Part shown: in pieces, positions 2,893 to 22,580 of the stretch
Layout: every line of letters starts with the position of its first letter
How positions within the stretch are numbered: the stretch's first letter is position 1
IMG/VR virus record: IMGVR_UViG_3300031566_003864
Location: 1 to 23,875 of that record
DNA from: a virus
Length of the DNA: 23,875 nucleotides
Reading direction: 5' to 3' (one strand)
Notes under the pieces: model-generated
Database searches by the model: none
What the model was told of the DNA's origin: nothing
Seen by the model: only the letters and a program-made list of their open reading frames with translations
Translations under genes and position numbers: made by a program

Positions 2893-2914
2893 TAAAAGAA
2901 AATTTTTAATAAAA

Positions 2915-2944
2915 CCCGATTCATTCATTTGAGTCGGGTTTTTT
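2915..2944 (+). terminator. Rho-independent terminator
   Basis: A 9-bp stem (CCCGATTCA at 2915-2923 with TGAGTCGGG at 2930-2938, one U-G wobble), a 6-base loop, and six T residues at 2939-2944. It closes the unit of the small membrane protein. Confidence 0.85.
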
Positions 2945-2973: not shown

Positions 2974-2994
2974 ATATTTATATTTATATGTGGA
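2974..2994 (+). promoter_or_regulatory. Candidate phage promoter, TATATTTATA type
   Basis: The 21 bases here are identical to 17425-17445 and include TATTTATATTTATATGTGGA. TATATTTATA is at 2979-2988. It lies just after a terminator and 24-44 bases before a start codon, and no sigma70 -35 is visible. A TATAAATA octamer, the T4 late-promoter consensus, also occurs on the + strand at 2969-2976. Confidence 0.55.
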
Positions 2995-3017
2995 ATGTTA
3001 TTTATAGGAGAAACCAA

Positions 3018-3413
3018 ATGAATAAAAAAGAATGGAATAAATTATTACACGAAAATGCTCTTGTAAATGAAGCGAAAGATGGATACGAGACCGTAATGTT
3101 AAGAGATGCAAAAAATCAAAAGGGAACGGAATTATTAAGAGGCGAAAAAGTAGTTGTTATGTTCACTGGTAGTCGTGCGGATTTTGTTTATATTGTTAGT
3201 GCCGACGATCCAAAAAGATTAAATAGATTAATGGTTCGAACTGTAAATTTACATAAATATGTTAAAGGCGCAACGAAAGAACCGTCAGAAAAATTATTAT
3301 ATAAAATGAGTGATGCTGGAATTGCTAAAAGTGTTCTCGGTAAAAGAGTAGAACCTGATGGATACGATCAATATGGGTCGCCTTCTTGGCTATTAGTAAT
3401 AGGATTAATATAA
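3018..3413 (+). CDS. Conserved phage protein with leader ending in LHE (candidate internal head protein)
   Basis: 131 residues starting MNKKEWNKLLHEN. The ATG at 3018 has ATAGGAG upstream and is preferred over an in-frame ATG at 2946, which lies before the candidate promoter. The first 12 residues form a basic, aromatic amphipathic helix ending in L-H-E, like the T4 capsid-targeting leader MKTYQEFIAE that the gp21 protease cleaves after (L/I)-x-E. The rest contains a beta-rich middle (KVVVMFTGSRADFVYIVSA) and a C-terminal block GKRVEPDGYDQYGSPSWL that I recall as conserved in marine phage proteins of unknown function. First gene of the 3018-5955 operon. Its leader shares 16 consecutive bases with that of the next gene. 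Confidence 0.7.
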   Translation: MNKKEWNKLLHENALVNEAKDGYETVMLRDAKNQKGTELLRGEKVVVMFTGSRADFVYIVSADDPKRLNRLMVRTVNLHKYVKGATKEPSEKLLYKMSDAGIAKSVLGKRVEPDGYDQYGSPSWLLVIGLI

Positions 3414-3423
3414 GGAGAGTGGT

Positions 3424-3627
3424 ATGGACACAAAAACTTGGAAAAAGTTATTACACGAAAATGAGTTAAATGAAGAAATGAAGTTTAAAGGTAAAACTGG
3501 TTATGAATGGATAAAAATGATTAGAGATATACCGTACGATGATTTAATGGAATGGGCAGAAATGTCACAATATCCTAAGTTATTAAATTTACTTGATTAT
3601 ATGAAGAAAAAAATGAAATATATATAA
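3424..3627 (+). CDS. Small protein with leader ending in LHE (candidate internal head protein)
   Basis: 67 residues. The start MDTKTWKKLLHENELNEE is nearly the same as those of its two neighbours, so the leader is a shared module. After it comes a short helical body with DDLMEWAEM and a lysine-rich end. AAGGAG lies eight bases before the ATG, and the gap to the previous stop is ten bases, so the two are co-transcribed. No family recognised. If the leader is cleaved after LHE, about 55 residues would remain inside the head; that is inference. Confidence 0.7.
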   Translation: MDTKTWKKLLHENELNEEMKFKGKTGYEWIKMIRDIPYDDLMEWAEMSQYPKLLNLLDYMKKKMKYI

Positions 3628-3637
3628 GGAAAAAACA

Positions 3638-4099
3638 ATGGACACAAAAAAGTGGCGTCAACTAATAAATGAGAGCAGTGTAATAATAGAGGCGGTAGAT
3701 TTTCTCAACAAGGAAAGTGATGCTTCTCAAGAAAACAAGGTACAACTCACATTAGACCGTAAAATAGGTGGAATGACCGCATGGTATCGCCTTGAAACTG
3801 ATGGTTGGTGGAGGCGTATTCACAATCCTGGAAAGGGGTATGGTATTCTTGTAAAGAAGTTTAAAATAACAGGTCAACCAAAAAATAAATATTTAAGCAA
3901 GACAACATATTTAGAATATCCGGTTATCATATCGTACATTCCGTTGGAGTATTCTGGTGAAGTTGATTGGGATCAACCAGGAAATATAGAAAAGGCGAAA
4001 GGAACAATGATGATAAATACGGATAGGACAAGTGCTGACGGAAAGGAAATAGAAAAGTTTGTGAATCAACAAATATCGAGAGGAACATATCAGCCATGA
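3638..4099 (+). CDS. Unknown protein with leader ending in INE (candidate internal head protein)
   Basis: 153 residues starting MDTKKWRQLINESSVIIEA, a third copy of the leader type, with two possible (L/I)-x-E cleavage points (INE, IIE). The body is beta-rich and aromatic (GGMTAWYRLETDGWWRRIH, YLEYPVIISYIPLEYSG) with a lysine-rich core, suggesting a compact folded domain that could bind nucleic acid; no family is recognised. AAGGA lies seven bases before the ATG, and the stop overlaps the next start as ATGA, indicating translational coupling. Confidence 0.65.
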   Translation: MDTKKWRQLINESSVIIEAVDFLNKESDASQENKVQLTLDRKIGGMTAWYRLETDGWWRRIHNPGKGYGILVKKFKITGQPKNKYLSKTTYLEYPVIISYIPLEYSGEVDWDQPGNIEKAKGTMMINTDRTSADGKEIEKFVNQQISRGTYQP

Positions 4100-4371
4100 A
4101 AAAGTCAGAATTAAAGGAAATAATACGAGAGGAAGTTAAAAGCATTTTAGCAGAATTTGGTGGTCGCCGAGCTGGTGGATACAGCAACGATCCGCGAGAG
4201 ATATATGCTAAATATCCTACAAAGTGTGCTGAAACGGGAACACCAATAAAGGCGGGCGAGAAATGTATTTATTATCCAAAACACAAAGAGTATTTTTGTT
4301 TAAAAAGCAAACAAGCGAGAGAATATTATGATTGGAAAATGGATGTAGATGTATTAGGCAGACCCTGGTAA
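4096..4371 (+). CDS. Small Cys-containing protein with leader ending in LAE
   Basis: 91 residues. The first 20 (MKKSELKEIIREEVKSILAE) form a charged amphipathic helix ending in L-A-E, a leader type I recall as common in marine phage proteins. The body has C44-x14-C59-x11-C71 with CAETGTPIKAGEKCIYYPKH, which looks like a small metal-binding or treble-clef-like fold, although a fourth ligand is not obvious. The start overlaps the previous stop by four bases (ATGA). Same operon as the genes from 3018 to 5955. Function unknown. Confidence 0.7.
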   Translation: MKKSELKEIIREEVKSILAEFGGRRAGGYSNDPREIYAKYPTKCAETGTPIKAGEKCIYYPKHKEYFCLKSKQAREYYDWKMDVDVLGRPW

Positions 4372-4385
4372 CTGAGGCGATAAAA

Positions 4386-4589
4386 ATGACGACATTAAAA
4401 GAATATTTATTAGATGAAGTACAAAACAAAGTAAAGATAAGACCAAAAGACATTGGTGATGGCGTAACAATAGAAGCGAAGATTGACGATGAGGGTTATC
4501 TTGTTTTTACTGATGGAACTGGAAATATGATATTTTTCCATCCTGATCAAATACCGCAACTCAAAAAATATTTACAGGGGATAAGATAA
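4386..4589 (+). CDS. Small protein with leader ending in LDE
   Basis: 67 residues beginning MTTLKEYLLDE, the leader most like T4 MKTYQEFIAE in length and pattern. The body is a short beta-type unit (DGVTIEAKIDDEGYLVFTDG) followed by FFHPDQIPQLKKYL. The ATG at 4386 follows GAGGCG and is preferred over an in-frame upstream ATG at 4332 that lies inside the previous gene. Two bases separate its stop from the next ATG. No family recognised. Confidence 0.65.
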   Translation: MTTLKEYLLDEVQNKVKIRPKDIGDGVTIEAKIDDEGYLVFTDGTGNMIFFHPDQIPQLKKYLQGIR

Positions 4590-4590
4590 T

Positions 4591-5955
4591 ATGAAAAAAT
4601 TTTTATATGGACATGACAGTCAAAAGAATGCTTATGTAATAGAAGATTATCCTTATGGGTTTTTAAGGACACAAAAGAAGATATGGGTCGAAACTATACC
4701 AAAGAAAGGCGACCGGGTAGTAAGTCAAACATTAGATCCGAAGAAAAATATTTGGAACAGACCAAAAGCATCAACTTTTTCGCCGATAAGATTTTTATAT
4801 CTTGACGAGAAAGGACACGTAGAAAATATGGGTGTAAGTCCGTATTCCGATTTTAATGAAGTGAAGAAGTTTATAGAGGCGATTGGTGGCGAAAAGAAAC
4901 TTAATAAAAATCAATTACAACAATATTATGATTTAAGTGGAAAAACATTAGAGGGTAGTGATCCAACATATACATATAAGTTTGACAAAACAATAAAAGA
5001 TAATAAAGTTTATACTTTAGATATTAAATTTGATGTCGCCAATGCTGTTAAATTAAAACATATTATTGGTGCAATAGATGATGTTATAGGAAATACTAAA
5101 AAAGGTAAATATGGTACACCAGCAGAAACGTTTAAGCAACTAATGGCAGACAAGGGGATAATAAGGGTATTTGGCAGGGGTGGACACATTATAGTTGGGC
5201 CGATGCTCGCCGACAAGACATATCAACAAATCAAATCACATTTAAAAAATAAAATCAGAGAATCAGTAGTAAATGAGGGTATTGGAACAGAACTTGTAAA
5301 GGTTATGACCAATAAATACAATGGGCAAGTCAAACGAAATGGATTAAAGAAACTTGGTTTAGTTGATTGGGAAATAAACACAGTAGAGAAAAAATATAGG
5401 GATGTTTATATTGGTGTCGCCAAAAAACTTGGAATGAAAACGAATGATGTAAAAGACAACTTTGGTAATATAAGTGTTTATCTCGGCGACAAAACAAATG
5501 ATTTTACGAATGCTCTAAAAAAAGAGTTGAGTAAAGTAAAAATAAAAGAATCTGTAAATGAAGTTGTAGTTGATATATTACAATATGATTTAGAACCCGG
5601 AGTAACATTATATTATAAACGACCTGAAAAAGATCAAGAAAGAACATTTATGTTTACTGATAAAAAGTTAAATAATGTATATAAGAGAAAGGGTAGTACG
5701 ATTATATTTCCAATGAGAGATATTTATGGTTATCCAAAGTATCCTGGTAAAGGTGTATATAAAAGCGAAAAAGTAGTTGGAAAAATAAATGAATCCAATA
5801 ATAATCAAACATCAAAACCAGAAGGATTACCAAAGGGTAAAGCAGCATTTCTGAAAACTGAGGGAATAGAGAAGAATCCTGTTTCTTGGATAAATAGAGT
5901 TGCTAAATGGGAAAAAGAATTAGAAAAAATGATTGGATATACAACTTTAGAGTAA
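4591..5955 (+). CDS. Large operon-end protein with repeated cleavage-like linkers (possible polyprotein)
   Basis: 454 residues, not assigned to a family. AGGGG lies ten bases before the ATG. It has no leader at its own N-terminus, but three internal segments resemble the leaders of its neighbours: HLKNKIRESVVNEG (217-230), KVKIKESVNEV (315-325) and VVGKINESN (395-403). They divide it into an N-terminal part of about 228 residues, two middle parts of about 95 and 75 residues, and a tail. The N-terminal part has beta-rich and helix segments (KFDKTIKDNKVYTLDIKFDV); the second is a lysine-rich helical unit; the third is beta-rich with YDLEPGVTLYYKRP. It ends the operon that starts at 3018. Processing into several internal peptides is a hypothesis; a single fused structural protein is the alternative. 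Confidence 0.7.
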   Translation: MKKFLYGHDSQKNAYVIEDYPYGFLRTQKKIWVETIPKKGDRVVSQTLDPKKNIWNRPKASTFSPIRFLYLDEKGHVENMGVSPYSDFNEVKKFIEAIGGEKKLNKNQLQQYYDLSGKTLEGSDPTYTYKFDKTIKDNKVYTLDIKFDVANAVKLKHIIGAIDDVIGNTKKGKYGTPAETFKQLMADKGIIRVFGRGGHIIVGPMLADKTYQQIKSHLKNKIRESVVNEGIGTELVKVMTNKYNGQVKRNGLKKLGLVDWEINTVEKKYRDVYIGVAKKLGMKTNDVKDNFGNISVYLGDKTNDFTNALKKELSKVKIKESVNEVVVDILQYDLEPGVTLYYKRPEKDQERTFMFTDKKLNNVYKRKGSTIIFPMRDIYGYPKYPGKGVYKSEKVVGKINESNNNQTSKPEGLPKGKAAFLKTEGIEKNPVSWINRVAKWEKELEKMIGYTTLE

Positions 5956-5969
5956 ATTTTTTAATTTTG

Positions 5970-5979
5970 TATATTTATA
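5970..5979 (+). promoter_or_regulatory. Candidate phage promoter, TATATTTATA type
   Basis: TATATTTATA followed by G, 35 bases before the ATG at 6014 in a 58-base gap between genes. No sigma70-like -35 is present. The same decamer followed by G occurs at 8262. Confidence 0.5.
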
Positions 5980-6013
5980 GATAGAATACTTTTGATAAAA
6001 AGGGAGAGGAAAT

Positions 6014-6343
6014 ATGCCTAATAAAGTAAAGAAAAGATGGATTGCTCGTCAAATAAAACGTGGAAATCCAAGATATGTAAAAGTTGGGACTGGTGTGGTT
6101 GAAGTAGAACCGATTGTTGAAGAATTTGTTGAACCAATCGTAGAGGAAGTCGCAGAGGAAGTTGTAGAAGAAGATGTAGAACCAGTTGCAGAGGAAGTTG
6201 CAGAGGAAGTTGTAGAGGAAGTTGCAGAGGAAGTTGTAGAAGAAGATGTAGAACCAACTGTTGTTGAAAGTGGGACTGTAACTGACGTTGAAGTGATAGA
6301 TGAAATAAAACCCGCGAAAAAACAAAAAAAACTAAAGAAGTAA
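6014..6343 (+). CDS. Acidic repeat protein with basic ends
   Basis: 109 residues with AGGGAGAGGA before the ATG. It has three parts: a basic N-terminus (residues 1-27, VKKRWIARQIKRGNPRYVK), a middle built of VEE/AEE units with interspersed EP (28-84), and a lysine-rich end (KPAKKQKKLKK). The block EVAEEVVEEDVEP occurs at residues 45-57 and 69-81. Such a protein is probably extended or coiled and highly charged; a scaffold, chaperone or DNA-mimic role is possible but not shown. It is transcribed just ahead of the tail tube gene, so a structural or assembly role is likely. No family recognised. Confidence 0.65.
   Translation: MPNKVKKRWIARQIKRGNPRYVKVGTGVVEVEPIVEEFVEPIVEEVAEEVVEEDVEPVAEEVAEEVVEEVAEEVVEEDVEPTVVESGTVTDVEVIDEIKPAKKQKKLKK
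6095..6265 (+). repeat. Tandem imperfect repeats encoding VEE/AEE units
   Basis: Repeats of GAAGTTGCAGAG and GAAGTTGTAGAG variants within the acidic repeat gene, with a larger duplicated block offset by 72 bases. The array is in frame and could expand or contract by recombination. Confidence 0.7.
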
Positions 6344-6368
6344 TTTAATAATTTTTAGGAGAAAATAA

Positions 6369-6863
6369 ATGCCAACTGAACGACTTTTAGAAGCCAATGA
6401 GTTGATGATTGAACGTTTTCAACCAAAACAAAAAAATCGTTTTATTATGTATGTTGATGGAATACCGGCGTGGTTGATAAAATCATCTACGAAACCTTCT
6501 ATTTCAATCAATAAAGTAACGATTGATTACATGAATATCAAACGATATGTCGCCGGCAAAGCAGAATGGGGCGAGATTGATATAACCTTATACGATCCGG
6601 TTGTTCCATCTGCTGCTCAATCTGTAATGGAATGGGTACGACTTCATCATGAAAGTTTAACTGGTCGTGACGGCTATGTTGATTTCTATAAGAAAGAGAT
6701 TGATCTTTATGGTATTGGTCCTGTAGGTGATTTGGTTGAGAAGTGGCGATTATATGGTACGCAGATTGTTACTGCTAATTTTGATTCTTATGATTTTTCT
6801 GTAGACGATCCGATTTCAATTAGTCTTACGCTAGCGTACGACTGGGCAGTCCTCGAATATTAA
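6369..6863 (+). CDS. Tail tube protein, T4 gp19-like
   Basis: 164 residues, the usual length for gp19-type tubes, which polymerise as stacked hexamer rings to form the inner tail. Matching features are the N-terminal FQPKQKNRFIMYVDGIPAWL, then SISINKVTIDYMNIKRYVAG, then WGEIDITLYDPVVPSAAQSV and a late beta segment with LTLAYDWAVLEY. The gene order (tube, chaperone-like gene, tape measure) supports the call. AGGAG lies nine bases before the ATG. A terminator follows immediately, which suits an abundant protein expressed at higher levels than downstream genes. Confidence 0.88.
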   Translation: MPTERLLEANELMIERFQPKQKNRFIMYVDGIPAWLIKSSTKPSISINKVTIDYMNIKRYVAGKAEWGEIDITLYDPVVPSAAQSVMEWVRLHHESLTGRDGYVDFYKKEIDLYGIGPVGDLVEKWRLYGTQIVTANFDSYDFSVDDPISISLTLAYDWAVLEY

Positions 6864-6881
6864 TTTTATTCGGAATGGGAA

Positions 6882-6906
6882 AGGCGGGATATTATCCCGC
6901 CTATTT
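6882..6906 (+). terminator. Rho-independent terminator after the tail tube gene
   Basis: A perfect 9-bp stem, AGGCGGGAT (6882-6890) with ATCCCGCCT (6894-6902), and a 3-base loop. The trailing T-run is weak (ATTTATTA), so termination may be partial. Confidence 0.7.
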
Positions 6907-6910
6907 ATTA

Positions 6911-6940
6911 TGAAACAAAAAGTGTTTCATATAGTATAAT
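6911..6940 (+). promoter_or_regulatory. Possible promoter with adjacent inverted repeat
   Basis: TATAAT at 6935-6940, 48 bases before the ATG at 6989, is preceded by a 7-bp inverted repeat TGAAACA/TGTTTCA (6911-6917 with 6923-6929). No clear -35. The inverted repeat overlaps the expected polymerase footprint and could be an operator. Confidence 0.4.
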
Positions 6941-6988
6941 ATAATGTGGATAAAAAGTTATTAATCTACTAATTTAAAGGGTTTTATT

Positions 6989-7174
6989 ATGTATAAAGAA
7001 CCAATGTTTGATTATGATGAAATTTCAGATGTAATGTATATTTCTTTTGGTGAACCAAAGCCATGTCGTACAGAAGAACCTGAATCTGGGCTCGTTATAC
7101 GATATACACCTGGAACTAATGAATTAAATGGATTCACGATTATAAATTATAGTGAAAGAACAAATAGGGAGTAA
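6989..7174 (+). CDS. DUF2283 family protein
   Basis: 61 residues with the typical DUF2283 pattern: MFDYDEISDVMYISFGEPKP, an acidic middle (EEPESGLVIRYTP) and NELNGFTIINY. The family is small (about 60-100 residues), of unknown biochemical function, and frequent in bacteria, sometimes as the partner of toxin genes. Here no toxin is visible and it sits inside the tail module, ending five bases before the start of the next gene. It may be a host-derived passenger or have a regulatory role. The ATG has GGG about ten bases upstream. Confidence 0.75.
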   Translation: MYKEPMFDYDEISDVMYISFGEPKPCRTEEPESGLVIRYTPGTNELNGFTIINYSERTNRE

Positions 7175-7178
7175 TGAA

Positions 7179-7991
7179 ATGGACGAAAAACAATTAATTG
7201 AAAATTTAAAACAAGAACACCAAACAAAAAATCAAGAGGGTTATCCTTCGGAAACGGTAACACTTCCATCAAAGGGATATTTTTATTCTGAAGAACATCC
7301 TTTTGCTACTGGTGAAGTTGAGTTAAAATATCCTACTGCAAGGGAGGAAGATATTTTGACATCAAAGAATTTGATTACTAAAGGTCTTGCGATTGATACT
7401 TTTTTAAAAGCTGTTATTCTTACACCGGTTGATTATGATTCGATATTTTTAGGCGACAAAAATGGAATTATGTTTGCGTCAAGGATACTTGCTTATGGAA
7501 CAGATTATCCTGTAAAGTTAAAATGTCCAAGTTGTCAGGAACAAATTAGTTTAAATATTGATTTATCTAATTTGAGTGCTAAGGAAATTGATTTTGAAAA
7601 ATATTTAAAGGGTATAAGTGAATTTGAAGTTGATCTACCAAATTCTAAAAAAAGAATCAAATATAAAATATTAACAAGTGGAGACGAATCAGCACTTACG
7701 GAAGAAATAAAAAGAACCAAAAAGAAAATAGCTGGATCTGGTGATGCAGAAGTAACAACTCGATTAAAATACGCGATTATATCAATTGATGGAGATACTT
7801 CCCGAGCAAATGTAGCAAAATTTGTTGATTCTATGTTATCAAGAGATTCATTATTTTTACGTGGTGAAATAGTAAATACATCTCCTGACATTGAAAGTAT
7901 TTTTGATTTTGTTTGTCCTGAGTGTGGTCATTCTGACGAACTCAATGTACCAATGGAAATATCCTTTTTTTGGCCTTCCGGCAAGCTATAG
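7179..7991 (+). CDS. T4 gp26-like tail/baseplate assembly protein with split zinc ribbon (chaperone position)
   Basis: 270 residues. The ATG at 7179 follows AGGGAG by seven bases and is preferred over a GTG at 7152. The N-terminal TVTLPSKGYFYSEE and GEVELKYPTAREEDILTSKNLITKGLAIDTFLKAVI fits the phage family related to T4 gp26, required for baseplate hub assembly. Two Cys pairs, C116-P-S-C119 and C246-P-E-C249, would form one zinc ribbon. It ends FFWPSGKL. In many phages the gene between tail tube and tape measure is a tail assembly chaperone whose C-terminus is extended by frameshift, and here an overlapping +1-frame ORF starts at its end. So it may be the functional analogue of the G part of G/GT; that is inference. 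Confidence 0.72.
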   Translation: MDEKQLIENLKQEHQTKNQEGYPSETVTLPSKGYFYSEEHPFATGEVELKYPTAREEDILTSKNLITKGLAIDTFLKAVILTPVDYDSIFLGDKNGIMFASRILAYGTDYPVKLKCPSCQEQISLNIDLSNLSAKEIDFEKYLKGISEFEVDLPNSKKRIKYKILTSGDESALTEEIKRTKKKIAGSGDAEVTTRLKYAIISIDGDTSRANVAKFVDSMLSRDSLFLRGEIVNTSPDIESIFDFVCPECGHSDELNVPMEISFFWPSGKL

Positions 7992-16063: not shown

Positions 16064-17413
16064 ATGAACATAATAGAAACAATAGAGGATTTCGCCATTT
16101 TCAAGGCGACAATCGAAAACAAAGATATAATCATTTTACCCACATTGACGAGTCCGTATAAGCATCCCTGTGACAATCATTTATCTCTTATTTATGTAAG
16201 AGTTATAGAATCTGACGACGAATATATTATTGGTTTTAATCATACAGACACAGTTGATATGGATGTATCGTTATTAGAAGAAATACAACCTAAAACGATA
16301 TGGACTATCAACCAAAAAAGACTTCTAAGTTTTATAAAAAACAAAGACATAAAAGATGTTGATATGTTTTACTACTTGCATTACAACGATGTGCCTCAAT
16401 GGATTCTGGACACGCCTACACACCTTTATTTCAACAGAAAGTTCAGTCAAGAAGAAGATATAAACATTTATATTCCACTTCCAAAACACATAGAGTTACA
16501 TCAAGACAATGCGGGGAAGATGGTTACGATACTTCATAATCATTATATACCGGCTGCCTTTGATTTTTACACTGAGAATCTAACGACGATGTATGAAGTG
16601 GAATCTCAGGGACTCAAGGTTGATTTGTCATTATTACAACATTATTATGGCGACAAGGTAATACCTTATGTATCAGATGACAGTCGTATATTCAGTGAAT
16701 ACAACTTTTACACATCCGCGGGTCGCCCGTCAAATCGTTATGGTGGTCTCAACTTTGTTGCGATTGATAAAGAAAAGGGTCACAGAAGGTCATTTATTCC
16801 AAGAAATGATGCGTTGTTATTATTTGATTTTGATTCATATCATTTGAGTTTGATTGCTAAGTTGATAGGACACGAATTTAGCGAAAAGAGTATACATACA
16901 TATTTAGGTCGTTATTACTTTGGAAAGGATGAACTGACCGACGAAGAATATGCCGACTCCAAAACTTTGAATTTTCAATATTTATATGGTGGAGTACCAA
17001 AAGAAGTTAGGGATGCGATACCATTTTTTGCCGAGGTTCAAGATTTTTATTTCGCCATTTGGCGACAAATAAAAAAAGATGGATTTTATGAATCGCCTTT
17101 ATCTGGAAGAAAGATATACAAAAAACAAATAGAAGACGCCAGCCCAACAAAGGTATTTAATTATTTTATACAATTAATGGAAACAGAAGCCAATTTAGTA
17201 TTGATGAAAAGAATCAACGAGTATTTACGAAACTATAAATCAAAGTTGGTATTGTATATTTACGATTCTTTTCTGTTTGATATAAGTCAAGACGATGGTA
17301 AAGAAATGATAAATGGTTTACGGGATATACTAAAAGTATTTCCTACAAAGGTATATTTTGGATATAACTATCAAGATTTACAAGACATTACACAAACTTT
17401 CATTTCGGAATAG
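16064..17413 (+). CDS. Divergent family A DNA polymerase lacking a clear exonuclease domain
   Basis: 449 residues. The catalytic palm and fingers of Pol I-type enzymes are all visible: TSAGRPSNRYGGLNFVAI (218-234, the TxxGRxSS block), motif A with D255 in FDFDSYHLSLIAKL, motif B with K300, F304 and Y308 in KTLNFQYLYGG, N366 and Q370 in FNYFIQ, and motif C with D401 in YIYDSFLFD. Both metal-binding aspartates are kept. Changes from Klenow: the steric-gate Glu710 position is H260, the motif C H-D-E is Y-D-S, and Arg754 is Y297. About 170 residues precede the thumb region and show no DxE exonuclease motif, so proofreading may be encoded elsewhere, as I recall for Rhodothermus phage RM378. AAGG precedes the ATG at a six-base spacing. 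It lies downstream of tail genes. Confidence 0.85.
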   Translation: MNIIETIEDFAIFKATIENKDIIILPTLTSPYKHPCDNHLSLIYVRVIESDDEYIIGFNHTDTVDMDVSLLEEIQPKTIWTINQKRLLSFIKNKDIKDVDMFYYLHYNDVPQWILDTPTHLYFNRKFSQEEDINIYIPLPKHIELHQDNAGKMVTILHNHYIPAAFDFYTENLTTMYEVESQGLKVDLSLLQHYYGDKVIPYVSDDSRIFSEYNFYTSAGRPSNRYGGLNFVAIDKEKGHRRSFIPRNDALLLFDFDSYHLSLIAKLIGHEFSEKSIHTYLGRYYFGKDELTDEEYADSKTLNFQYLYGGVPKEVRDAIPFFAEVQDFYFAIWRQIKKDGFYESPLSGRKIYKKQIEDASPTKVFNYFIQLMETEANLVLMKRINEYLRNYKSKLVLYIYDSFLFDISQDDGKEMINGLRDILKVFPTKVYFGYNYQDLQDITQTFISE

Positions 17414-17465: not shown

Positions 17466-17717
17466 ATGATAAAATTAAAAAATTTATTAAGTGAAGACAA
17501 ATTGTTTATTTCGATAAATCCAACCGGGGAATCTGTTTACAAATATGAATTATTTTTACAAAATTCAACAAAAAAACAACGAAAAAAATATTTTGATTTG
17601 TTAGGTGCTGTGATAACTGATGGTGATTATAATAGATTATTCTTTATCGATAAAGAGAAAGCTTTAGTTGCAAAAAACAAAATTGAAAAGGCTTTAAAGA
17701 AAAATAATTGGAGATAA
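17466..17717 (+). CDS. Small protein with leader ending in LSE
   Basis: 83 residues from the ATG at 17466, which has GTGGAG nine bases upstream; in-frame ATGs at 17358 and 17439 lie in the polymerase gene or in the candidate promoter. It starts MIKLKNLLSEDKLFI, with L-S-E as a possible cleavage point. The rest is lysine-rich (NSTKKQRKKYFDLLG) with a beta-alpha pattern (YNRLFFIDKEKALVAKNKI) that looks like a small compact fold. No family recognised. The next gene begins after three bases, so they share an mRNA. Confidence 0.68.
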   Translation: MIKLKNLLSEDKLFISINPTGESVYKYELFLQNSTKKQRKKYFDLLGAVITDGDYNRLFFIDKEKALVAKNKIEKALKKNNWR

Positions 17718-17720
17718 TAA

Positions 17721-19925
17721 ATGACTAAAGAGTTTATAGAAGAAATTATATTTGAATTATCATATAGAGTATCAAATGGTATTCCTGATTTAAAGAATGA
17801 AGATCATTTATATGTGCTTCGTGAAATAATGGAAGAAAAAGGCATATCGTTTGATGTGATAGAAAGTGTTATTGATAATTTGAGAGAAAAGAGGTTACTA
17901 ACTGAACTTGAATCATTTGGTGGGCCGACTCGTTCTTTCGCCATAGATTTTGATGGAACACATAGTTCTGGAAGTCTAAATTTTGATTTTAAAAATTATG
18001 ATCCCGAAATTAAAGAACCTGTTCAAGATGATGAAGCAGAAGCTGAGGACGACGGCGATGAACCGGTAAAAGAAGAAAGTTATATTCCAACCTATATTTT
18101 TGATCCTGATAAAATGGGTATAGTTGAAACCGGAAATAGCATTCCAAAGAACGAAGTATTGAGTGAAAACAAGTTTAAGTGTTTTATGACAGGAGAGGTT
18201 TTTCTTGAAACAACGAATGGAACACTTGTTAAGGAACTTGATTATTTAGACAACACGATAGAGGAATTGAATGAAGACTGGTGGGCTGATTATTCTGAGG
18301 AAGAGCAACAAAAATATATTCAAGACCATCCAGCAAGTCAAAAAGCATTGGATGCAAAAAAGAAAAAAGAGAAAGATGTGCCGTCTGGCGAAAAAGACAA
18401 TAAAGAACAAAAAGATGAAATGAGAAATGTTGATCATGAAGAAACCACCAAAGCTTTAATGTTTACCAAAACAGAAGCGGAAACAGAAAAGAAAACTAAA
18501 AAGAGTGGTGAAGTGTTAGGCCGCGGATTGGGAACTCCTGAATCAAGAGCGGGAGAAGCGGCTACACATTATGCGATTAGACAATTGATTGCAGGGAAAA
18601 ATTTAGATGAAGTAAAAAACACTCTAACGGATATTGCTAATCAGAAAGACACATATTTGAAAAAAGAGTGGGTTAATAGTTCTCTTAACGCTACTAAATT
18701 TATTGTGAATAAATATGGAGCAGAAAATATAGATGAAGTTGTTTGGGATACTCCATCAGGTAGAAAATTAATTGGAGTTGAAGGACACATGACACCAAGT
18801 GATATGTTTATTACAACAAAAGACGGGAAAAGAATAGGAATATCATTAAAGAAAGATGGTGATGTATATTTAGTTAATAGTGGATATAAACAAGCGTTGC
18901 TGAATTTATTAGAAGGTATGAATGAACAAGAAAAACAAAAAATAACAGAATCCGCGGGTGATGAATCATATAAAAAAGATAGAAACGAAAAGTTACAAAA
19001 AGCTATAAATGTATTAGATGGAGAAATGAAATCTACATTTAATACATCACTTAAATATTATAAATCAAACATTGATGAAGCTATAAATATATTTGGGCCA
19101 AATTATGGAAAATACTTGGATTCATTAGATAACATGGATTCAATAGTTGAAAGAGCGAATAGTGGTGGTAAACTTAAAACGGACGAAATTAAAGCTTTTG
19201 CAAGAATTATTGGTCGAGGAACTCCAATTTATGAAAAGAACCCTGATTTATATAACGATATAAATTTAGCGGATTATAGACTTATTGGACGATTATTAAA
19301 AAATTTTGAAGAAAGCCCAAAGTTTGCTGTTTCATTAAAGAAATTTATTTCTAAAAGAATACATATAAGTGAACTTCTTAATTTAGAACAAAATCCAAAA
19401 TTAGATGAATTCATAACTGTATATGGTGAATCGCCAGATGGAGTTGAATTGAGTAAAAAGAGTTTATTAGAGTTATTCGGCGAAAAAACTACAAAATTAT
19501 ATGAAATAAAAGAGGGATTTGAAAAGGCTAAAACGCCAGAGGAAAAGAAAAAATATTCAAACGAGATAATGAAAAGTATTAATAATAGTATTTATATAGA
19601 TTTTAAAGACGGAGCACATGATGGTGTAATTAAAGTAAAACACGAAGATGGAAAAGAATATCCAATATTTACTGTTGGAACAAGGACTCGTGGAATTGGG
19701 GCCGCTACAGCTCTTGAAATACATCAAACTTCATATATGGCGAATGCTTTAAAATTTAAGACATTTGATGTTGAAAAATGGAATCCATTACAAAGAAATA
19801 ATTTTTTCAAAAGATTAAAAGGTGAATATGAAGAAAGGTTAAAAGATAATAAAGGAAATCCAGAAGGAATTGCGGAACTTCAAGATGGTATAAAGAAAAT
19901 AAACGAAAAACTAAAGGAGAAATAG
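17721..19925 (+). CDS. Large phage protein with PD-(D/E)XK-like core, candidate virion nuclease
   Basis: 734 residues. The first 60 (MTKEFIEEIIFELSYRVSNG, then LKNEDHLYVLREIMEEKGI) are an N-terminal domain I recall from several marine phage virion proteins. An acidic linker (100-120) and a lysine/glutamate-rich stretch follow; between them is DYSEEEQQKYIQDHPASQKA (190-209), a motif repeated in the small ORF at 22924. The core (270-400) has E279 in SRAGEAATHYAIRQL, D361 in MTPSDMFITT and K377/K378 in RIGISLKKDG, a layout like PD-(D/E)XK nucleases, though the second acidic residue is replaced by serine (S375-L-K377). The C-terminus has VGTRTRGIGAATALEIHQTS. Function is inferred, not established. 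It ends two bases before the next ATG. Confidence 0.6.
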   Translation: MTKEFIEEIIFELSYRVSNGIPDLKNEDHLYVLREIMEEKGISFDVIESVIDNLREKRLLTELESFGGPTRSFAIDFDGTHSSGSLNFDFKNYDPEIKEPVQDDEAEAEDDGDEPVKEESYIPTYIFDPDKMGIVETGNSIPKNEVLSENKFKCFMTGEVFLETTNGTLVKELDYLDNTIEELNEDWWADYSEEEQQKYIQDHPASQKALDAKKKKEKDVPSGEKDNKEQKDEMRNVDHEETTKALMFTKTEAETEKKTKKSGEVLGRGLGTPESRAGEAATHYAIRQLIAGKNLDEVKNTLTDIANQKDTYLKKEWVNSSLNATKFIVNKYGAENIDEVVWDTPSGRKLIGVEGHMTPSDMFITTKDGKRIGISLKKDGDVYLVNSGYKQALLNLLEGMNEQEKQKITESAGDESYKKDRNEKLQKAINVLDGEMKSTFNTSLKYYKSNIDEAINIFGPNYGKYLDSLDNMDSIVERANSGGKLKTDEIKAFARIIGRGTPIYEKNPDLYNDINLADYRLIGRLLKNFEESPKFAVSLKKFISKRIHISELLNLEQNPKLDEFITVYGESPDGVELSKKSLLELFGEKTTKLYEIKEGFEKAKTPEEKKKYSNEIMKSINNSIYIDFKDGAHDGVIKVKHEDGKEYPIFTVGTRTRGIGAATALEIHQTSYMANALKFKTFDVEKWNPLQRNNFFKRLKGEYEERLKDNKGNPEGIAELQDGIKKINEKLKEK

Positions 19926-20330: not shown

Positions 20331-20567
20331 ATGGAGAGAGAAGAATTAAAAGAGATTGTACAAGAAATGATTTTAAGTGAAGCAAGACCAAAAGACACTA
20401 AAGGCATCAAAAAAATATACTATGATCTCGGCGACAAAATACAAGGTTTAGCTAAGTTAGGAAAAACCAAAAGGGATGCTAAAATCAAAGATTTAGCGGC
20501 AAAAATGTTTAAGGCATTTAGGGAGTTAGAAAGTTATTTTGATAAAGAATATGATGGTTGGGATTAG
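20331..20567 (+). CDS. Small helical protein with leader ending in LSE
   Basis: 78 residues: MEREELKEIVQEMILSEARP, a charged amphipathic leader ending in L-S-E, resembling that of the gene at 4096. The mature part would be a lysine-rich helical bundle (GDKIQGLAKLGKTKRDAKIK, then FRELESYFDKEYDGWD). AGGAG is ten bases before the ATG. No family recognised. Confidence 0.68.
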   Translation: MEREELKEIVQEMILSEARPKDTKGIKKIYYDLGDKIQGLAKLGKTKRDAKIKDLAAKMFKAFRELESYFDKEYDGWD

Positions 20568-20579
20568 GGAGAAGATTAA

Positions 20580-20879
20580 ATGAAGATAAAGAAAAAGGTA
20601 TTTGAGGAACTTTCGGATTTAGAACACGCTCAATGGATGTCATGGGCAAAGGACATCACCAAAACTGAAAAGATAAGTCCTGAGCGAGTAAAACGTTGGG
20701 AAGAAGATATGTTTAAGCCTTATAGTGAGTTGAGTGAGGAAGATAAGGACAAGGACAGAGAAATCGCAATAATTGTGTTACAGGTACTTGCTAAATATTA
20801 TGATCTTGTACCAAAAACTGAAATAAAGGAATCCAATATAAATGTATATATTGGAAAAATGAAAACTGAGTGGCCGTAA
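20580..20879 (+). CDS. RyR-domain-like small protein
   Basis: 99 residues. The core LEHAQWMSWAKDI, then SPERVKRWEEDMFKPYSELS and EEDKDKDREIAIIVLQ, follows the pattern LEHxxW...W...PYxxLxExxKxxDR seen in RyR-type repeat domains of bacteria and phages. The biochemical role in phages is unknown; the domain is thought of as a ligand or protein-binding module. GGGAGAAG lies before the ATG. It ends 30 bases before the fusion enzyme gene. Assignment by pattern only. Confidence 0.6.
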   Translation: MKIKKKVFEELSDLEHAQWMSWAKDITKTEKISPERVKRWEEDMFKPYSELSEEDKDKDREIAIIVLQVLAKYYDLVPKTEIKESNINVYIGKMKTEWP

Positions 20880-20909: not shown

Positions 20910-22580
20910 ATGAATTATTTCAAATTTAATTATAAAAATAGAATTATAAATGTATATATTACTCTTGATTGTAAGCCAATGGTTTTTATTAAAAAACCAA
21001 ACAATGACAAAGTAATAGTTTATAAAATACATTTCTATGATAATATAAACAATAAAATGTTGTATGATGTGGAAATAACCGACAATTGTCTGCCAATTAA
21101 TTGTTGGGCAATTTGCAACATCAAATGTAAAGAATATCGAATAGAAATAATAGATAAAGATGAAGATATGTTGATATTATCTCATATATTATTAAATGAA
21201 AATAAAGAATATAAAAAAATTGATTTATATAAAGAAAACATATATTTGGACGAAAATGGTTCTTTAGGCGAAACACCTCTTTGTGAAATAATGAAAAAAC
21301 ATGGTAGCGATAAGTCAACATATCATAATTATACATTATTTTACCATGCACTTTTTCAAGGTATGAGATATAAAAATATAAATTTATTTGAATTGGGAAT
21401 TGGTTCTAATGATGTAAGTATTCTATCGAATATGGGCAAAGCAGGAAAACCTGGTGCATCACTTAGGGGATGGAGAGAATATTTTAAAAATGCTAGAATA
21501 TATGGAGCAGACATAGATAAAAAAATATTATTCAAGGAAAAAAACATAGAAACTTTTTATTGTGATTCATTAAGTTCAAAATCAATAAAAGATATGTTTA
21601 ATCAAATAGATGTTTTATTCGATATAATTATTGATGATGGATTGCATACATATGAATCAAACTTTAATTTTTTAATTAATTCTTTTAATAATTTAAAGTC
21701 GGGTGGTTATTATATAATAGAAGATGTTTATGTAATAGAGCAATTTAATTCTATAAGAGAAACATTATTAAATGATTTTGAAATAGAATTTATTGATATA
21801 TATAAAATACCACATATTAGAAACAAAATAGACAATAATTTAATAATAATAAAAAAGAAAGAAGATAAAAAGAGGTGTTTTGTTACTTTTTATTCTAACG
21901 AAGATTATGAACTAAATCAAGTATTGGTAGAGAGTATTAACAAGTTTTCCAAATATAATATATTATCATTTACACACGACGATTTTTCACATTTAGACAT
22001 AGAAAATAGGTATCGATGTCCAATATTCATTCAGAAAGTATTATCATATATTAAATGTCTTCAAATTGGATTTGATGAAGTTGTATGGTTGGATTCAGAT
22101 ATAATTGCATTTCCTAAAATAGATAATATATGGAATAATACTTGCAAGATAGAAGATTATTCTTTGTTACCTGTTCATTTTATGTTGTTAGATCCATATA
22201 ATTTGTTGAATAATGAAAAAAAATATTTTAATTGTAAAATAACAAATAATACTGTTTATTTACATGCGTGTATTTCTATTTTTAATAAAAATTGTTTAGA
22301 TTTTTTTAATAAAGTTCTGGATAAATATTTATACGTCGATCATAGACTATTTCCATTTGGCGACGAATCTATAATGAATTGTTTGATATGGGAAAAAGAA
22401 GAGCCTAAAAATTTAGGAAGATGTTATATTCAATATGATTATAAAAAAAATAGTGAATATATTCATGGGAAATTTATTTTTGAAAAAATTAAAAAAGATG
22501 AAATATTAGCATTTCATGGGTGTAAAGAAAAAGAAATTTCTAGAGAATATTTGAAAAGGATATCAGAAAACTTTTGCTAA
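20910..22580 (+). CDS. SAM methyltransferase - GT8-like glycosyltransferase fusion
   Basis: 556 residues in three parts. Residues 1-120 are a beta-rich unassigned domain. Residues 121-320 are a class I SAM-dependent methyltransferase of the macrocin/mycinamicin O-methyltransferase type: HGSDKSTYHNY (131-141), FELGIGS (160-166), GASLRGWREYF (182-192), GADID (199-203), IIDDGLHTY (240-248) and GGYYIIEDV (265-273). Residues 321-556 resemble GT-A glycosyltransferases of family 8: a CFVTFYSN start, D395-S-D397 in VVWLDSDII as the metal-binding DxD, FGDESIMN (483-490) and H536-G-C-K near the end. Together they would add and O-methylate a sugar on a phage or host glycan. It is very AT-rich, with weak SD, unlike neighbours, suggesting acquisition. 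Confidence 0.78.
   Translation: MNYFKFNYKNRIINVYITLDCKPMVFIKKPNNDKVIVYKIHFYDNINNKMLYDVEITDNCLPINCWAICNIKCKEYRIEIIDKDEDMLILSHILLNENKEYKKIDLYKENIYLDENGSLGETPLCEIMKKHGSDKSTYHNYTLFYHALFQGMRYKNINLFELGIGSNDVSILSNMGKAGKPGASLRGWREYFKNARIYGADIDKKILFKEKNIETFYCDSLSSKSIKDMFNQIDVLFDIIIDDGLHTYESNFNFLINSFNNLKSGGYYIIEDVYVIEQFNSIRETLLNDFEIEFIDIYKIPHIRNKIDNNLIIIKKKEDKKRCFVTFYSNEDYELNQVLVESINKFSKYNILSFTHDDFSHLDIENRYRCPIFIQKVLSYIKCLQIGFDEVVWLDSDIIAFPKIDNIWNNTCKIEDYSLLPVHFMLLDPYNLLNNEKKYFNCKITNNTVYLHACISIFNKNCLDFFNKVLDKYLYVDHRLFPFGDESIMNCLIWEKEEPKNLGRCYIQYDYKKNSEYIHGKFIFEKIKKDEILAFHGCKEKEISREYLKRISENFC

Follow-up and report, generated by a model that had tools for sequence, protein, structure and literature searches.

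Background

The Alt protein of bacteriophage T4 is the textbook example of a packaged ADP-ribosyltransferase. Alt and other head proteins of T4 carry leaders of 10 amino acids each (ipIII, MKTYQEFIAE; Alt, MELITELFDE; gp24, MAKINELLRE). According to reviews, proteins foreign to T4 are carried into its prohead core by the capsid-targeting sequence (CTS), and gp21 removes the N-terminal peptides of the internal proteins and of Alt (PMC9958956); in T-even phages the internal proteins are highly diverse and only the CTS is conserved (PMC3012670). The inner-head proteins of phiKZ and SPN3US resemble the cargo proposed here in being packaged, ejected and freed of propeptides by cutting after E, but the propeptides mostly exceed 100 residues and are cut after A-x-E or S-x-E rather than (L/I)xE; in SPN3US, eight of about 50 head proteins are cut and two paralogues have a common N-terminal 15-mer (PMC5694885). 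The polyvalent effector proteins and MuF-fused ADP-ribosyltransferases, too, comprise virion-packaged multidomain proteins and ADP-ribosyltransferases, which are deployed early and enriched in myoviruses (PMC9503650); there, packaging was inferred from fusion or gene neighborhood, whereas here it is suggested by a removable leader and by predicted cleavage sites between domains. Titles, abstracts and some passages of the open literature on 'capsid targeting sequence' yielded no report of leaders such as those described below.

Genomic context of the cassette

The window, by which we mean the whole stretch of DNA analyzed, is the 23,875-base IMG/VR record IMGVR_UViG_3300031566_003864 of an uncultivated tailed phage, with a G+C content of 32%. 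T4-type genes for the tail tube, baseplate hub and wedge (Table 1) place it among the T4-like phages (myoviruses), and synteny over the tail module and the small DNA polymerase links it to G005 (a 182-kb contig), G008, the 484-kb huge phage LR756508 (also W01) and the cultured Flavobacterium phage immuto. The polymerase, a short family A enzyme (449 aa, 16064-17413) that adjoins the tail genes, is also found in immuto and G005. Elsewhere the window encodes a radical SAM protein (1192-2145) and a 556-aa protein that appears, by eye, to be a methyltransferase plus glycosyltransferase (20910-22580).

The region of interest consists, in this order, of a hairpin, three TATTTATA boxes, five cassette genes, gene 4591 (genes are named by their first position) and the tail tube gene, the landmark 3' of the cassette. 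The hairpin is not among the sites listed by a consensus terminator scan. The first-pass annotation of this DNA had proposed that 3018, 3424, 3638, 4096 and 4386 encode unrelated bodies behind short leaders; all five genes, with their starts and leaders, were confirmed, the starts are mostly preceded by an AGGAG-like ribosome-binding site, and no similarity between the five bodies is detectable. The first three leaders are indeed related, and the 16 bases common to 3018 and 3424 are TTATTACACGAAAATG. No family was found for the five proteins in Pfam and PHROGs searches, no match to 3638 or 4591 by tblastn among 50,697 phage records, no relative of 3018 in a related-locus search, and no known domain or relatives for the cassette bodies of the window. 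At the level of the N-termini, the first 59 residues of 3424 match L034:8368 (39.7% identity), and the leader of 4096 matches proteins of L049, L059, L067, L137 and L309, but only within residues 1-27 or a shorter stretch. The AlphaFold model of 3638 was unusable (pLDDT 44) and was set aside.

Table 1. Features of the window discussed in the text
Feature	Position	Strand	Remarks
Strong RNA hairpin, terminator-like	2911..2943	+	directly 5' of cassette, parting it from upstream genes; fold -18.6 kcal/mol, z -5.8
Candidate late promoter of cassette	2975..3006	+	three TATTTATA boxes (2975-2982, 2981-2988, 2999-3006)
Putative cargo gene 1	3018..3413	+	class A leader MNKKEWNKLLHENALVNE (3018-3071); predicted cut before A19; 113-aa body, no function assigned
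Putative cargo gene 2	3424..3627	+	class A leader MDTKTWKKLLHENELNE (3424-3474); body about 50 aa
Putative cargo gene 3	3638..4099	+	class A leader MDTKKWRQLINESSVIIE (3638-3691); 135-aa body, no function assigned
Putative cargo gene 4	4096..4371	+	class B leader MKKSELKEIIREEVKSILAE (4096-4155); 71-aa body with several cysteines
Putative cargo gene 5	4386..4589	+	class C-like leader MTTLKEYLLDE (4386-4418); 56-aa body
Probable polyprotein, 454 aa	4591..5955	+	predicted internal sites after E229 (RESVVNE), E324 (KESVNE), E401 (GKINE)
Tail tube protein (T4 gp19-like)	6369..6863	+	phrog_4542, E 5e-25; 55.6% identity to G005
Baseplate hub	7182		phrog_150
Wedge subunit	13133		phrog_7145
Separate putative cargo gene	17466..17717	+	class C leader MIKLKNLLSE (17466-17495); TATTTATA upstream
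734-aa protein	17721..19925	+	possible site IIFE/LSYRV after residue 12
Separate putative cargo gene	20331..20567	+	class B leader MEREELKEIVQEMILSE (20331-20381); pairs with 4096 in N-terminal comparison
RyR-domain-like protein without leader	20580..20879	+	a class B leader of 16 additional residues is present in the homologue L034:783

Leader classes and their distribution

A single leader pattern, as originally envisaged for the cassette, does not describe these genes. The leaders are short and end in hydrophobic-x-E, and they fall into three classes: class A, MDxKxWxKLLHENxLNE (3018, 3424 and 3638); class B, MKKSELKxIIREEhxxhLxE (4096 and 20331); and class C, MIKLKxLLxE (4386 and 17466), which has the length and shape of the T4 leaders. 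The class C-like leader of 4386 is comparable to that of T4 Alt, and that of 17466 has the same 10-aa length as the T4 leaders. Class A and class B leaders are new sequences. Among the additional starts that the first-pass annotation had listed in the window, 17466 and 20331 proved to fit leader classes C and B, respectively, and 8301, 15671 and 22726 fit none. The possible leader of 17721, a protein with no assigned function, is a weaker case; W01:242336 and G008:147682 begin similarly (ILLE/WSYR).

The motif alone is weak evidence, as had been cautioned from the start: (L/I)xE ending at residue 8-20 is present in 14.7% of internal segments of window proteins, and LxE occurs near the start of 9 of 25 other window genes. 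For five consecutive (L/I)xE genes, the probability of a chance occurrence is about 7e-5, and 0.002 once all positions are allowed for, which is suggestive only. Beyond the motif, a degenerate DNA pattern derived from the first three leaders matches only those three places, with no match in 100 dinucleotide shuffles.

Nor is the phenomenon limited to one cassette, since dozens more genes in relatives carry such leaders; it is these relatives that make the case for shared leaders strong. The 17-kb contig L034, which encodes terminase and portal, has seven further genes starting MDxKxWxK, six clear and one degenerate, with unrelated bodies; at scores of at least 45, there are 12 pairs of similar N-termini in this contig compared to none among internal segments. 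In LR756508, the corresponding numbers are 204 and 5, and 33 N-termini are class B leaders against 2.6 expected from internal segments; 26 of these 33 genes lie within 82 kb (140-222 kb), around a Peptidase_S77 gene at 156.5-158 kb. LR756508 also encodes, at 368-401 kb, two further, unrelated families of small proteins with N-termini in common (EKxYIxxK and ELRYLK) that lack the LxE end. A leader match in L005 falls inside a long unrelated open reading frame and was judged to be due to chance.

When 20-24 aa leader consensuses were compared to cultured phages by tblastn, a search of little power at such length, only LR756508 and immuto were found. Immuto has four leaders of the form M..F(D/N)L(K/R).FL.EN, four that are class B-like, and an annotated prohead protease. 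The class B pattern is present in at least 119 stretches in IMG/VR compared to four in 257 Gb of prokaryote genomes, the four being on contigs with phage-related genes; the virus specificity of the class B leader is thus established by sequence.

Predicted cut sites

To delineate the end of the class B leader, IMG/VR was scanned with a DNA pattern that covers residues 1-14 only, which yielded 132 distinct proteins. The six residues past the pattern converge on xKVLNE, with a hydrophobic residue at position 18 in 73% of the proteins and E20 in 64%; conservation runs to residue 20 and ends at residue 21 (entropy 3.7-4.1 bits), and no alignment is apparent among the bodies (mean column identity 5%). 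Residues 18-20 depart from a perfect LxE in about a third of the leaders, and [LIVM]xE with its last residue anywhere from 16 to 24 is found in 113 of the 132 proteins compared to 16 of 132 in a control stretch. The conserved residues show synonymous codon variation, which indicates selection on the peptide.

For class A, the first-pass annotation had placed the cut after LLHE or LINE, which is probably not the case. In ten aligned leaders, the first E, at residue 12, fits the hydrophobic-x-E motif in 6/10, and the second, at residues 16-19, in 10/10, so that the class A leaders appear to comprise 17-18 rather than 12 residues, with the cut likely to occur at the second E. Across the classes, short N-terminal leaders of about 10-20 aa that end in (L/I)xE are thus found on unrelated proteins.

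Leaders as detachable modules

The modular character of the leaders is most apparent on recognizable enzymes in relatives. In L140, MIKLTDILKE precedes a complete Fe/Mn superoxide dismutase, with homology from residue 29-32 (E 1.5e-47), and in L054, MIKLAQLLKE precedes a 5'-deoxynucleotidase, with homology from residue 14. The RyR-domain-like protein 20580 is 48.9% identical to L034:783, the similarity beginning at residue 17 of the latter (RyR domain E 4e-4 and 5e-6, respectively, both below the Pfam cut-off). In all three families, the body begins after the leader, as expected of a module that the cargo does not need for its fold. The L140 gene (5505-6203) is an instance of a virus-encoded superoxide dismutase with a class C leader, and the enzyme is possibly packaged in virions.

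In G005, MIKLRDILNE precedes a Tox-ART-HYD1 domain (an ADP-ribosyltransferase family) that scores over its cut-off; proteins of L142 and L048 begin similarly, and the L048 contig has Peptidase_S77. The body of an L085 protein is P-loop kinase-like, and a scan of 110 leader proteins detected the AAA and Zeta-toxin families, one each. LR756508 encodes a set of some 16 or more class C leader paralogues at 177-338 kb (L016-L024), with the signature LxRG ... PxR..SxFA ... EVxFxG. These are possibly a large ADP-ribosyltransferase-like family, a label that rests on motifs only since a profile of these YRG-motif paralogues found no PDB relative; no Pfam match was found either. Another class C protein, W01 213967, weakly matches ADP-ribosyltransferase families.

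Gene 4591, which adjoins the cassette, probably encodes a polyprotein with internal predicted cut sites. It contains three [LIVM]NE motifs (at 227-229, 322-324 and 399-401) compared to 0.45 in shuffles (P 0.01) and shows distant homology (E 0.004; 24% over 180 aa) to an L054 polyprotein that begins with a leader of class B and in which KESVNE and SINE align with the second and third of these sites. In the 685-aa product of L034:5132 (5132-7189), [LIVM]NE occurs seven times where shuffles give 0.74. The motifs separate segments such as DUF5661 and a terminal zinc-ribbon-like one, and junctions of the type ENKMNE(A/Q) recur between the small domains. The DUF5661 segment has a homologue in G025 inside a stand-alone class B leader gene, and L034:10642 contains an internal class B leader, MKIKMSELKSMIGEILKE.

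Prohead protease and candidate late promoter

No gp21-type prohead protease was detected in the 23.9-kb window, which is a fragment. Its closest relatives, G005 and G008, encode Peptidase_S77, as does LR756508, inside the leader cluster. Among the 22 leader contigs that reach 49 kb, 17 encode Peptidase_S77, compared to 2 of 14 control contigs picked by a neutral gene-start pattern (Fisher p 2.9e-4). The lack of a detected protease in the other 5 of 22 is weak evidence because contigs are fragments and may be incomplete. Leader cassettes elsewhere are located beside terminase and portal (L034) or between the sheath and tube genes (L127, L116).

The TATTTATA boxes, located 5' of 3018 and of 17466, may serve this phage group as a late promoter, one that differs from the T4 late box TATAAATA. 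The observed and expected numbers upstream of genes are 7 and 0.9 in the window, 18 and 2.0 in G005, 26 and 3.5 in G006, 19 and 1.7 in G008, and 24 and 2.1 in immuto; in W01, no enrichment upstream of genes was found. In immuto, TATTTATA favors structural genes (16/60 vs 8/154, p 3e-5), a value to be treated cautiously as the regions were chosen after the list had been seen. The box is strand-specific and occurs in the window at 2975-3006 and upstream of 6014 and 8301, and in G005, G006, G008 and MW353175. The T4 late box itself was considered as the promoter and rejected, being, unlike TATTTATA, not enriched upstream of window genes.

Function of the leaders

We consider it likely that the leaders are propeptides which direct proteins to the capsid and are cut off by the prohead protease, and that the cargo is packaged and probably injected. 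The idea of T4-like targeting leaders cut at this motif is strongly supported by the sharp hydrophobic-x-E end and the co-occurrence with Peptidase_S77, which, like the leader classes and their modularity, are apparent from the sequences themselves, as well as by the nearby head genes and the detachable leaders on enzymes, one of which is an ADP-ribosyltransferase and so has the activity of T4 Alt. The cargo protein would be synthesized late in infection, and its N-terminal leader, which is short, basic and amphipathic, would, by analogy with T4, dock it into the prohead core. A T4-type prohead protease, the Peptidase_S77 seen in relatives, would then cut after hydrophobic-x-E, removing the leader, and the same protease would separate the segments of the 4591 polyprotein. 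The mature bodies would remain alongside the DNA inside the head and pass into the host at infection, where we infer that their roles are probably diverse, either accessory or directed against the host. Our literature search found no published virion proteomics for phages with class A or B leaders, immuto included.

The central idea of the first-pass annotation, T4-like capsid-targeting leaders cut after (L/I)xE, thus finds strong comparative support, and the number of classes, the class A site, the adjoining polyprotein and the extent of the phenomenon, which reaches well beyond one cassette, called for revision. As with the T4 CTS (internal proteins I-III and Alt, and the gp24 propeptide), short N-terminal leaders ending in (L/I/F)xE precede unrelated proteins; the 10-residue length of class C, ADP-ribosyltransferase cargo and Peptidase_S77 in related genomes are further points of resemblance. 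In contrast to T4, leaders of classes A and B extend to 17-20 aa and have other sequences, cleavage is predicted, and a genome can contain tens of leader genes as opposed to a handful, along with internal leaders, polyproteins, and superoxide dismutase and nucleotidase cargo.

The leader could also target proteins to the prohead core as core or scaffold parts that, like T4 gp67 and gp68, are consumed in assembly rather than delivered. The leader genes immuto 123355 and W01 153398 lie directly before the protease, as do T4 genes 67 and 68, and the multi-site polyproteins resemble core proteins cut to peptides; nevertheless, we regard this as unlikely, given that the bodies include complete enzymes (superoxide dismutase, deoxynucleotidase, ADP-ribosyltransferase and kinase-like) and vary from genome to genome, which ill suits structural core proteins.

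Still less probable, in our view, is that the leader is no head propeptide but a signal for loading into the lumen or baseplate of the contractile tail, as in extracellular contractile injection systems. The cassettes between sheath and tube in L127, L116 and L067, and just upstream of tube in the window, would be compatible with such a role, but T4 itself has head and tail late genes as neighbors, other cassettes adjoin terminase, portal and protease, and the leaders end in a T4-type prohead protease motif and co-occur with Peptidase_S77.

A DNA-level effect, with translation-enhancing or recombining start regions in which the peptide is irrelevant, could account for the 16 identical bases in 3018 and 3424, but is very improbable because residues are kept despite synonymous codon variation and conservation ends at the protease-type motif. 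The equally remote view that LxE is a chance occurrence near the N-termini of K/E-rich proteins and that the cassette consists of ordinary small late genes draws on the background frequency of the motif, but is refuted for classes A and B by whole-leader similarity and the accompanying statistics, the weak cases 8301, 15671 and 17721 excepted.

Conclusions

Returning to capsid targeting, we lean towards the broader view that a large, unrecognized T4-like clade uses three leader classes, present also between polyprotein domains, to load tens of proteins per virion, among them superoxide dismutase, a nucleotidase and many ADP-ribosyltransferase-like proteins. Phage-carried proteins usually become known only after virion proteomics, and for uncultivated phages they are not known; if the three-class packaging code is true, the whole injected proteome would be predictable from DNA. 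Unusual cargo is indicated, namely, a superoxide dismutase behind a leader and polyproteins that would be cut within the head, and the predicted cut sites are directly testable. If the leaders work in this way, packaging would be gained by the addition of a 10-20 residue tag, and a simple profile would suffice to identify, in thousands of metagenomic T4-like phages, the host-facing proteins that are packaged, most of which have no known function.
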